The notes beneath the pieces are model-generated. The model worked only from the letters and a program-made list of their open reading frames with translations, was not told the origin of the DNA and ran no database searches. Made by a program: the position numbers and the translations under genes. A stretch of 64,000 nt of DNA. It comes from Desulfuromonadaceae bacterium. Lineage in GTDB: Bacteria; Desulfobacterota; Desulfuromonadia; Desulfuromonadales; JAHYIW01. The stretch covers positions 1 through 64,000 of the forward strand of contig JAHYIW010000011.1 of assembly GCA_019429445.1 (NCBI GenBank), read 5' to 3'. Position 1 is the first letter of the stretch, and each line of letters opens with the position of its first letter. Shown in pieces: positions 60,667 to 64,000 of this stretch.

Positions 60667-60695
60667 TTGACAACCCGTGTCAATCAAGCTAGATT
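60667..60695 (+). promoter_or_regulatory. Sigma-70 promoter of the MshEN-receiver gene
   Basis: TTGACA, a 17-base spacer and TAGATT stand 40 bases before the ATG at 60736. Confidence 0.65.
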
Positions 60696-60735
60696 TAGCC
60701 AGCTTCAACGCCGCAGCCTTATCCGGGGAATTGGC

Positions 60736-61599
60736 ATGAGCGCAGAGATGAACGGAAAACCGTGGAAAAAGCTTGGTGAGATTTTGATTGCCGAGGGCAT
60801 CGTTACCCGGAAAACGGTTGACCGTGTTCTGGTTCATGCTCAGGAGTTGCACCGGCGTTTCGGCGCGACGCTGATCGATCTTAATCTGGTCAGCGGTGAG
60901 GAACTGGCCAACGCACTGGCCAAGCAGCATGGCTGTAAAACCGTTTTCGGCCTCGGTGATATGCCGGTTGACAAGTCCTTGCTGGCCACCGTTCCGGTTG
61001 AGCAGGCGCTGCGTCATCTGATTTTTCCGTTCAAACGCAAGGGCGACCAGCTGGCTCTGGCGATGGTCGATCCCACCGATGGTGATATCCTCCACGAATT
61101 ATCGATCCGGACCGGTCTCAAGGTTTTCCCCTTTGTCACGACCCGCGAAGATATCCGTACCGCAATCAGTCGTCTTTATCTGAATAAAGAGCCACGGCGC
61201 ACAAAAGAGCGAACCGTGTTGCTGGTCGATGACGACAAAGTTATTCTGCAGATGCTGACCGATATTCTCAGTGGGGAGGGTTATCGCATCCTGACCGCAC
61301 AGGATGGCATGGAAGCGTTCAAGATCGTCATCGGGGACAGCCCGCATGTGGTGATCACCGACATGGAAATGCCGAAACTCGGGGGGTATCAACTGCTCAA
61401 TTCAATGACCGCGATTCCGGAAACACACCATATTCCCGTCATTATGATCACCGGCAAGGCAAAGACCGAAGAAGAAGAGCTGCATGCCTTTGAAAAAGGT
61501 TTTTTTGACGTGATCATGAAACCCTTCACCAAAGCCTCGGTACGGGCACGGGTGCGGCGCGCGTTCCATTTCTACAACAATCAATACCGCATTTTCTAG
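60736..61599 (+). CDS. MshEN/T2SSE N-terminal domain fused to a receiver domain
   Basis: A 287-residue protein. Residues ~10-155 match the N-terminal domain of type II secretion ATPases (KKLGEILIAEGIVTRKTVDR, then LAMVDPTDGDILHELSIRTG), a fold known in MshE to bind c-di-GMP. Residues ~163-285 are a receiver with LLVDDD, phospho-Asp in VVITDMEMP, Thr in MITGK and Lys in DVIMKPF. No ATPase part is present. It could join a phosphorelay with a pilus or secretion signal. GGGGA precedes the ATG at 60736; 60748 is an alternative. Confidence 0.78.
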   Translation: MSAEMNGKPWKKLGEILIAEGIVTRKTVDRVLVHAQELHRRFGATLIDLNLVSGEELANALAKQHGCKTVFGLGDMPVDKSLLATVPVEQALRHLIFPFKRKGDQLALAMVDPTDGDILHELSIRTGLKVFPFVTTREDIRTAISRLYLNKEPRRTKERTVLLVDDDKVILQMLTDILSGEGYRILTAQDGMEAFKIVIGDSPHVVITDMEMPKLGGYQLLNSMTAIPETHHIPVIMITGKAKTEEEELHAFEKGFFDVIMKPFTKASVRARVRRAFHFYNNQYRIF

Positions 61600-61796
61600 T
61601 GTTCTTGTCTCGCGCTGATGTCTGCACTTTGCTGCCAGCGGTTTTCTCTTTAATTTTTTTGATCTGTTTGGGGATGCTCAAAGTATGAGTACAGAGGCTC
61701 AGATCGAAGGGCAGCAGCCACAACAGATGCGGCGCGGGATGCTTATTTGACGGGCCTGAACTTCACCGTCATTCATGTGCTGGACAGCGGAGAAAG

Positions 61797-61896
61797 CACC
61801 ACCCCGCCCCTGCGGGGCACCCCTCCACAGGAGGGGAATGGGGCACAAAATTCCCCTCCTGTGGAGGGGTGGCAGGCGCAGCCTGACGGGGTGGTG
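61797..61896. repeat. 100-bp hairpin element, upstream copy
   Basis: Outer perfect inverted ends CACCACCCCG (61797-61806) and CGGGGTGGTG (61887-61896). Inside is a perfect 21-bp inverted repeat (61819-61839 and 61850-61870) around a ten-base loop. The ATG of the DUF559 gene starts two bases after its end. Confidence 0.9.
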
Positions 61897-61898
61897 TA

Positions 61899-62384
61899 AT
61901 GCGCTCAACCAAAAGCTATATGTCGCTCCCCTATAACCCGGCGCTAAAGGAAAGAGTCAGGGATTTGCGCAGAGCTGGAAATTTATCCGAGGTTTTGTTG
62001 TGGAATAAAATCAAGAACAAGCAGTTTTCAAGCTTGGATTTTGATCGGCAGAAAATCATCGGCAACTATATTGTTGATTTTTTCTGCGCAGAAAAGGGTG
62101 TGGTGATCGAAATCGACGGCAGCAGCGACGATGACAAGGCTGATTACGATGCGCAACGGGATGCGTTTTTAATCGGGCTTGATTTGGTGGTCATTCACAT
62201 CAGTGATAGCGACGTGAAACGCAATTTGTTCGGGGTCATGGAATTTTTGAGAAATCATCCGGTATTGGCGACCACCCCGCATGGGGATAAAGGCACCACC
62301 CCCCGCCTATGGCGTACCCCTCCAGAGGAGGGGAATGGTACACAAAATTCCCCTCCTCTGGAGGGGTGGTGTAATGACGATTAA
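61899..62384 (+). CDS. DUF559 endonuclease-domain protein
   Basis: A 161-residue protein of the DUF559 (Vsr-like PD-(D/E)xK) family: LPYNPALKERVRDLRRAGNL, LWNKIKNKQFSSLDFDRQKI, GNYIVDFFCAEKGVVIEIDG, with the nuclease core D in YIVDFFC and E-x-D in VIEIDG. The last ~40 residues (from about ATTPHGDKGTTP) are encoded by the downstream hairpin element, so the natural domain probably ends near FLRNHP. No ribosome site is obvious because the upstream sequence is the hairpin element. It may be a nicking or double-strand nuclease; its target is unknown. Confidence 0.8.
   Translation: MRSTKSYMSLPYNPALKERVRDLRRAGNLSEVLLWNKIKNKQFSSLDFDRQKIIGNYIVDFFCAEKGVVIEIDGSSDDDKADYDAQRDAFLIGLDLVVIHISDSDVKRNLFGVMEFLRNHPVLATTPHGDKGTTPRLWRTPPEEGNGTQNSPPLEGWCNDD
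62294..62371. repeat. Hairpin element, downstream copy
   Basis: Ends CACCACCCC (62294-62302) and GGGGTGGTG (62363-62371) with an inner perfect 21-bp inverted repeat (62316-62336 and 62347-62367). The inner arms differ from the upstream copy at one compensated position (ACA/TGT there, AGA/TCT here). Both copies run directly into GGTGGTGTAATG. Confidence 0.85.
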
Positions 62385-62510
62385 AGAGAAGGATGGCAAC
62401 AACGCGTTTCTCAAGGAGCTTGGCTTGCCGAATCTACCGTTTGCCAGCACCCGGTAACGGCGACAAATTCGGTTGCGGATGTGTGGCTGTAGTCCACCAG
62501 GTCTCAGACA

Positions 62511-62544
62511 CAAAAACGGCCCACCGCGAAATCAGGATGGGCCG
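62511..62544 (-). terminator. Intrinsic terminator after the RND permease gene
   Basis: On the minus strand CGGCCCA, a 14-base loop, TGGGCCG and a run of five T. It lies 35 bases beyond the stop codon. Confidence 0.75.
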
Positions 62545-62578
62545 CTCCGCAAGCACCTGAAAATCATCGATCTCATGC

Positions 62579-64000
62579 TCAGTGCTCTGTGCCGGGCTTT
62601 TCCGCAAAAAACTTGCCGCGAAAATCCTCAATTACCATATACAACGACGGCACCAGCACCAGGGTGATCAGGGTCGCGAAGACGATGCCGAAACCGAGCG
62701 ATAACGCCATCGGAATCAGAAAACGCGCCTGACGCGAGGTCTCGAAGATCATCGGTGACAGACCGCCGAAGGTGGTCAGGGTGGTGAGAATGATCGGCCG
62801 GAAACGCCGCACTCCGGCGGCGTGGATCGCCGTGTGGGAATCGATCCCGGCGAGACGCTGGCGATTGGCATAATCGATCAGTACCAGCGAGTCGTTGACC
62901 ACCACCCCGGAGAGGGCGACAATCCCCATCATGCTGATCACGCTGAGGTTATAGGACATCAACAGGTGTCCGAAGACCGCGCCGACAATCCCGAAGGGGA
63001 TCGCGATCATGACGATAATCGGCTGGATATAGCTGCGAAACGGAATGGCGAGCAGAAAGTAAATCCCCATCATCGCCAGAGCGAAGCCGGTGAAAAGGCT
63101 CGACATGCTTTCCCGCATCGTTGCCTGACGCCCCTGGTAGCCGTAGGTCAGCCCAGGGAAATCGCGCGCCAGTTGGGGCAGGATCGTTGCGTTGAGAACT
63201 GCCGTGACCTGGCTGACTTCGCCGATTGGCTCGACATCGGCGGTGACATTGAGCGTTCGTCGCGCATCACGCCGCTTGATTACGGTGTAGGCGCGGCCAC
63301 GTTGCACAGCGGCGACTTCCACCAGCGGGACAAAGGTGCCGGTCGGGGTGCGTATGAGCAGATTTTCGACATCATATTCGCGTTGACGTTCCCTTTCCGG
63401 CAGACGCACCCGCACCGTGACTTCGTTGCGACCCCGTTGCTGGCGCAGTGCGACAGAACCGGTGAAGGCGTTGCGGATCTGGCGCGCCACCTCGCTGGAG
63501 GTCAGCCCAAGGGCCCGCCCGGCGGGAGTGATACTGAAATCGAGTTGCTCCTTGCCGGAGGTTGAACCATCATTAATATCCTTGACGTTGGGGAATTCTT
63601 CCAGCCGTTCGGCCAGGGCAAGCGCAGCGCGTTCAATCGTCGCGACATCGCGATGTGAAAGTTCAACGGTCAGCGCGGCCCCCGAGCCGGGGCCGCCGCG
63701 ATCCGATTCAAAGCGCAGCGACTGGAGTCCAGGCAGCGTCCCGACGCCCTTGCGCCATGCTGTGGTCACCTCACGGGTCGACAGCGGGCGGACCTCGGGG
63801 GGGGGAAGATAGGCGACGATTTCGACCTGATTCTCATCGACCTGGGCACGGATCCCTTCAACCAGATCTTCTCCGCCATGCTCCCGCGCGACCTCCTGAA
63901 TAGCGGTTACCAGCGTGTCACGAACCGCCAGCAGCGTGGCGAGCGGACTGCCGACCGGTAATACCGCGGTGACGACGGCGCTGTCCGCTTCGACACGTGG
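62579..64000 (-). CDS. RND efflux transporter permease, C-terminal part (partial)
   Basis: The frame is open to the window edge, so about 473 C-terminal residues are seen. They include periplasmic porter/docking parts (LPGLQSLRFESDRGGPGSG, EVTVRVRLPERERQREY) and the final membrane block of the AcrB fold (MGIYFLLAIPFRSYIQPIIV, MMGIVALSGVVVNDSLVLID, RPIILTTLTTFGGLSPMIFE). The motif text does not settle drug versus metal export. Membrane fusion and outer membrane partners would lie beyond the window. The gene ends at an intrinsic terminator. Confidence 0.9.
   Translation of the reverse strand, partial: PRVEADSAVVTAVLPVGSPLATLLAVRDTLVTAIQEVAREHGGEDLVEGIRAQVDENQVEIVAYLPPPEVRPLSTREVTTAWRKGVGTLPGLQSLRFESDRGGPGSGAALTVELSHRDVATIERAALALAERLEEFPNVKDINDGSTSGKEQLDFSITPAGRALGLTSSEVARQIRNAFTGSVALRQQRGRNEVTVRVRLPERERQREYDVENLLIRTPTGTFVPLVEVAAVQRGRAYTVIKRRDARRTLNVTADVEPIGEVSQVTAVLNATILPQLARDFPGLTYGYQGRQATMRESMSSLFTGFALAMMGIYFLLAIPFRSYIQPIIVMIAIPFGIVGAVFGHLLMSYNLSVISMMGIVALSGVVVNDSLVLIDYANRQRLAGIDSHTAIHAAGVRRFRPIILTTLTTFGGLSPMIFETSRQARFLIPMALSLGFGIVFATLITLVLVPSLYMVIEDFRGKFFAEKPGTEH

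Follow-up and report, generated by a model that had tools for sequence, protein, structure and literature searches.

The DUF559 gene close to the end of the window, the 64,000-nucleotide stretch of DNA analysed here, is probably one copy of a mobile element with a single gene, bounded by cognate double hairpins, with the nuclease likely to act at these ends. Each element comprises a left end (L), a DUF559 nuclease gene and a right end (R), about 420-560 bp in all and usually one open frame throughout. It would spread as a whole to other places in chromosomes, some of them in frame within conserved genes, with solo ends remaining. Sequence comparison reveals the unit, its ends, the cognacy between nuclease and ends, differences in presence and absence, and in-frame insertion; we infer that mobility is due to the nuclease, which would recognise and cut the hairpin and drive copying.

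The window locus and its nuclease

The gene (61899..62384, plus strand, 161 aa, domain at 61944-62243) is an intergenic copy, with a MshEN/response-regulator gene on one side (60667-61599) and, on the other, an efflux-pump gene on the minus strand (62579-64000). Its product belongs to DUF559 (PF04480, E 8.5e-25, 87.2 bits against a curated cut-off of 20.6), as an earlier note on this DNA had proposed. That note also described two elements of the same build, of ~80-100 bp, and these are real: the two hairpin units (61793-61872 and 62290-62369) share 86% identity across 80 nt (z about -8.5). The inner perfect palindrome, given earlier as 21 bp, is an inverted repeat of 22 bp in unit 1 (61818-61839/61850-61871) and of 21 bp in unit 2 (62316-62336/62347-62367), each with a 10-nt loop. 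As single strands the two units fold with -47.1 kcal/mol (z = -8.7) and -31.3 kcal/mol (z = -8.5), and none of 200 shuffles folds as well; the outer CACCACCCCG..CGGGGTGGTG of unit 1 is base-paired too.

Each unit consists of two ends, R and L, placed back to back. Between the units there is one compensated base pair, CCACAGG/CCTGTGG in one and CCAGAGG/CCTCTGG in the other (ACA/TGT against AGA/TCT), and it links the two ends of a double unit with each other, R1 with L1 and R2 with L2. The earlier note took this change as implying selection on the hairpin. The change itself is genuine, but a single pair could equally be produced by template-switch correction of a palindrome, and it is thus weak evidence of selection.

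The order of parts is remnant, R1, L1, gene, R2, L2. The upstream unit does stand before the start codon, as first described, but that description was incomplete, because the unit directly follows the C-terminal 22 codons of a second DUF559 copy (AARDAYLTGLNFTVIHVLDSGE, 61729..61794, plus strand), which are in frame with the hairpin tail that follows. This remnant is identical at 12 of 20 positions to residues 85-104 of the intact window protein, and 65% identical to the protein of locus L051. The right end of the remnant copy, R1 (CACCACCCCG..CACCCCTCCACAGGAGGGGAAT, 61797..61839, plus strand), has the R-end layout found in relatives, and L1 (ATTCCCCTCCTGTGGAGGGGTGGCAGGCGCAGCCTGACGGGGTGGTG, 61850..61896, plus strand) is the left end of the intact copy. 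On the other side, R2 (62294..62336, plus strand), the right end of the intact copy, lies within the 3' coding end of the gene, where the second unit had been placed by the earlier note; L2 (62347..62371, plus strand), which pairs with R2, is a shortened left-type end without the inner small hairpin and may be the remnant of a third copy. The gene frame passes through both R2 and L2, so that the last ~30 codons are translated hairpins and the protein has a hairpin-coded tail, TTPRLWRTPPEEGNGTQNSPPLEGWCNDD. The TAATG that had been seen after each element is present and is explained as an overlapping stop and start, TAA closing the upstream frame and ATG opening the next; it is in this way that the remnant frame's stop shares bases with the start codon of the DUF559 gene. 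At the second TAATG there begins a short open frame, MTIKEKDGNNAFLKELGLPNLPFASTR (62374-62457), for which no relatives were found among the fetched loci.

Given the C-terminal remnant upstream of the first unit, we read the window locus as a small decayed array of remnant, intact gene and extra ends, which may itself be inactive. At most loci the unit that emerges from comparison is L-gene-R, rather than a gene with two double units, although R-L double units flank the gene here and at L001, L079, L100 and L102.

The invariant residues of DUF559 proteins (R24, E31, W35, F48, R50, Q51, D60, F61, E71, D73, D84 and R87, with H77 near-invariant) fit a PD-(D/E)XK/Vsr-like nuclease. The window protein has the catalytic-type residues E31, D60, E71 and D73, with Asp in place of H77, a replacement by which this copy may be inactive. 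The nearest characterised relative is the homing endonuclease I-Bth0305I, both by profile (3r3p, E 6e-4) and by fold (probability 1.00, TM 0.69); a fold model of the window nuclease (pLDDT 90) matches both it and 3hrl (ngo0050) better than Vsr (1vsr, E 0.29). Repeats likewise lie on either side of the DUF559 gene of N. gonorrhoeae in L099.

Matching ends and their cognate nucleases

With two samples combined, matching inverted ends were found for 85 of 119 DUF559 genes from many phyla, compared with 0 of 87 other genes from the same loci tested with their own flanks (Fisher p about 3e-30, computed without correction for relatedness); about 29% of the DUF559 genes are without clear ends. Together with the fold z-scores, these counts reject terminators or chance hairpins as the source of the pattern. 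In relatives the left end has the layout AATTCCCCTCC-N-GGAGGGGTG..GGGGTGGT, and the right end is its inverse. The first sample, that of the relatives, is possibly biased, one of its search patterns having been taken from the hairpin tail and related queA insertions making up 23 of its 80 loci. A second sample was drawn by the DUF559 family profile alone from 148 genomes of the phylum; here 29 of 47 DUF559 genes reached a score of at least 16, against 8 of 256 shifted controls, and 38 of 47 a score of at least 14, against 9 of 256.

The ends also agree with each other and with the nuclease between them. Left and right ends of the same element score 20.4 on average, compared with 11.6 (sd 0.38) for permuted pairs, and the similarity of ends follows the similarity of nucleases with r=0.65 (permuted maximum 0.12), results for which host phylogeny is a confounder; the permutations ignore phylogeny, and the queA loci are related lineages whose counts are not independent. 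Different nuclease clades carry different end families inside one genome: the 2.9 Mb window genome has two DUF559 genes, each with its own hairpin family, the window hairpin (and likewise the perfect CCCCTCCNNNGGAGGGG) occurring at this locus only, and the gene on contig C28 having on either side another double hairpin, repeated in tandem and restricted to that locus. One queA gene (L057) holds two nuclease clades with two end families. The earlier note had named, as the finding that would count against it, hairpins that are common intergenic repeats without enrichment beside DUF559 genes. The reverse is seen, with the hairpin confined to its locus and the ends enriched as above; an ordinary intergenic repeat is rejected by the 0 copies away from DUF559 genes in the window genome.

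Three further arrangements were observed. At L197 the polarity of the ends relative to the gene is reversed with respect to the queA elements, the ACCCTCTCC tip lying outside and the hairpin inside. At L031:2501-3175 tandem amplification of the right end gives the protein a C-terminus with about seven repeats like NHPGLTATPPEEGNG. A different repeat of ~160 bp, at L142:2446-2607, directly adjoins a DUF559 element and has dozens of copies in two congeneric genomes (G133/G104).

Occupied, empty and in-frame sites

A unit of 437-444 bp is found at different sites, with similarity ending at the hairpins. The copies at queA site A in L040 and queA site B in L050 are 91.1% identical over 438 bp, from AAGTTCCCCTCC to GGAGGGGAAC, and a unit is likewise shared between the non-homologous places L040A and L046B, and between L065B and L069A. 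Two congeneric genomes share one at L129 and L142 (91.7% over 423 bp), and two copies a few kb apart on one contig, L123 and L144, are 86% identical over 394 bp. No transposase is present in the unit.

Empty sites, the comparison suggested by the earlier note, were also found. The sister species G148 has 95-97% DNA identity to the window genome, but there the window interval (61606..62599) measures 77 bp instead of 994 bp and has no DUF559 gene. The hsdM gene of G148 contains an in-frame DUF559 element that splits the N6_Mtase domain, whereas the hsdM of the window genome, 92-96% identical, is without it; 462 bp and 21 bp, respectively, separate the flanks, so that the two genes differ here by 441 bp, equal to 147 codons. 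No target-site duplication is seen at the hsdM junction, where the flanking bases have diverged, and neither a target-site duplication nor a target motif was recovered for the elements compared. The window genome's hsdM (L211, G000:C5 about 69451-69586) has a gene-less palindrome at a place that is taken in the sister species by another small palindrome, TCATTCCCGCGAAGGCGGGAATCC. For the L129 site, another species (G104/G133) has the orthologous interval without the element, but its intergenic DNA is too diverged for the exact junction to be defined.

Other possible origins and test cases were set aside. Phage and plasmid origins are rejected, with 0 and 5 matches among 50,697 phages and 7 among 72,556 plasmid records. 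The E. coli ycjD region (L105, L103, sapF-fabI) is mostly covered in 3331 of 5426 E. coli genomes; it was rejected as an empty-site test because efflux-pump genes occupy the junction in the three genomes without ycjD that were opened.

How might such a unit move? Most likely, the Vsr-like nuclease would recognise the hairpins at the ends of its own element, either as extruded structures or in single-stranded DNA, and nick there, after which repair or replication would copy the L-gene-R unit into a new place. A homing-type selfish gene is an unlikely alternative, in which the nuclease would cut empty alleles at chosen targets and spread by repair, the hairpins being by-products or end protection. 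It fits with the closest characterised relative, the catalytic domain of a homing endonuclease, with a few phage relatives annotated as homing endonucleases, and with the recurrent use of the same two queA sites and, repeatedly, of R-M genes. The insertion sites of the copies are, however, unrelated in sequence, a single host gene can hold elements in two positions and from two clades (L040, L057), and cognate end hairpins are not predicted by homing.

A search for solo hairpins and for other flanked DUF559 genes, proposed in the earlier note, found both. The queA sites A and B are variously empty, occupied or solo, with solo ends in queA at L061, L066 and L069; about a dozen more occur in G104. 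The S. meliloti strains have one close DUF559 locus only, nearly all remaining matches being solo repeats. Some genomes have many similar solo repeats, which leaves a small probability to a passenger role, somewhat lower than that of homing: the palindromes would move or form by other means (host recombination, template switching or an enzyme acting in trans), and DUF559 would be cargo or a domesticated repair enzyme, the function proposed for the Caulobacter DUF559 protein VsrA (PMC12907096). Such a role would leave unexplained both the cognacy of nuclease clade with end sequence and the confinement of the window-genome hairpins to DUF559 genes. We favour the mobile element with its own nuclease, and the candidacy as a selfish element put forward in the earlier note is strongly supported by end enrichment, cognacy, empty sites and solo hairpins alike.

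Many elements continue the frame of a host gene. Hosts confirmed by Pfam are queA (two sites, sometimes both), hsdM, hsdR, pglX and ispG, together with Type ISP and Eco57I-type methyltransferases, a DUF1156 methyltransferase and a radical SAM gene. DUF559 also occurs as an N-terminal fusion of Cas4, and at L198, in the sister species, DUF559 is open in frame with Cas4 and has hairpins on both sides. Among elements with both ends, 28 of 31 have no stop over their whole length when read in the frame of the gene, and the ends are open more often in this frame (28/28) than in either alternative frame (23/17 and 13/16). The hairpins are translated as linkers such as KFPSFGGVPEGRGG, and QueA, HsdM and further host proteins retain the element as a domain in frame; open-frame ends would allow insertions in coding genes to survive.

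R-M and other DNA-modification genes seem over-represented as hosts or neighbours, possibly in connection with the behaviour of the Caulobacter DUF559 protein, which sets off the SOS response upon loss of a DNA methyltransferase (PMC12907096). That the nuclease serves the adjoining or enclosing restriction or modification systems is nevertheless very improbable, for although in-frame copies lie in HsdM, HsdR, Type ISP, Eco57I-type, PglX and DUF1156 genes, Cas4 is fused, and among the 68 neighbours of stand-alone genes about 11 match R-M families, queA, ispG, the radical SAM gene and others are equally in-frame hosts, and the hairpin-ended unit stays constant while its neighbours vary.

Relationship to known systems

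The DUF559 hairpin element is apparently an undescribed, widespread family of tiny mobile elements, and no paper joining DUF559 to palindromic repeats was found in the open-access literature. We regard the element class as categorically new; a conservative reader could see in it a variant of the selfish nuclease gene. On the broadest reading, for which we see the balance as even, this is an undescribed class of transposable element in which a Vsr-like nuclease would mobilise its own hairpin ends, insert in frame as an added domain of host proteins, and be the source enzyme of BoxC, RIME-like and cyanobacterial palindromic repeats. BoxC-type and similar hairpin repeats gain a candidate mobilising enzyme, in a unit that can be tested in laboratory E. 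coli. A nuclease domain also enters conserved proteins such as HsdM, HsdR and QueA in frame, with no intron or intein evident, a route of domain gain for which no description was found in the open-access literature.

I-Bth0305I (EDxHD, Vsr-like) shares with DUF559 its fold, profile similarity and the logic of a selfish nuclease, but it resides in a self-splicing phage intron, is not known to have hairpin ends and has a specific target. Homing would use one conserved target site with an empty allele that is cleaved; DUF559 copies occupy many unrelated sites, but the queA sites recur. YcjD, previously connected with Vsr (PMC1189080), and Caulobacter VsrA are both DUF559 proteins, and these and E. 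coli Vsr are all PD-(D/E)XK enzymes; Vsr differs as a mismatch nickase without flanking hairpins, and is a weaker structural match.

Rickettsia palindromic elements are palindromic DNA in frame in conserved protein genes. In-frame insertion is shared by the relatives of the window element, the window copy being intergenic, but the Rickettsia elements are not known to have a nuclease gene whereas DUF559 elements carry one, and the sequences probably differ. In S. meliloti, R-L palindromes of the same layout enclose the DUF559 gene (L102), and a single record has as many as 25 matching places; we take these repeats to be RIME-type. The Rhizobium RIME-type repeats are gene-less mosaic elements, unlike those of DUF559.

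Many bacteria carry hairpin repeats of the BoxC type, which have been recognised since the 1990s. Also called PIT or triplex motif (TM) repeats, in E. coli and elsewhere, they are described as gene-less and intergenic, and a 2015 study never found a mobility activity nearby and left their origin open (PMC4666352). Several DUF559 elements have ends in exact agreement with the published TM consensus: CCCTCNCCC N3-6 GGGNGAGGG N3 GGGNGAGGG occurs in 11 of 132 DUF559 loci, though not in the window ends, and at a density of 0.11 per kb near DUF559 genes against 0.012 elsewhere in the same loci. Most solo copies are far from DUF559 genes, and E. coli genomes have a median of 19 related repeat places. 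The E. coli ycjD gene has a BoxC copy within 400 bp downstream and a different palindrome upstream, a link that is suggestive only.

The closest parallel in logic is REP/BIME-RAYT, which also has a single gene between cognate palindromes, dispersed solo palindromes and cognacy between nuclease and palindrome. The likeness drawn in the earlier note holds for this logic but not for the enzyme, since RAYT (TnpA-REP) is an HUH/Y1 transposase related to IS200/IS605 and DUF559 is of the PD-(D/E)XK/Vsr-like type; the enzymes are unrelated, and the DUF559 element is thus not a member of the REP/RAYT group. Moreover, REPs are extragenic, whereas DUF559 elements, with ends that read AATTCCCCTCC..GGGGTGGT, also lie in frame within genes.
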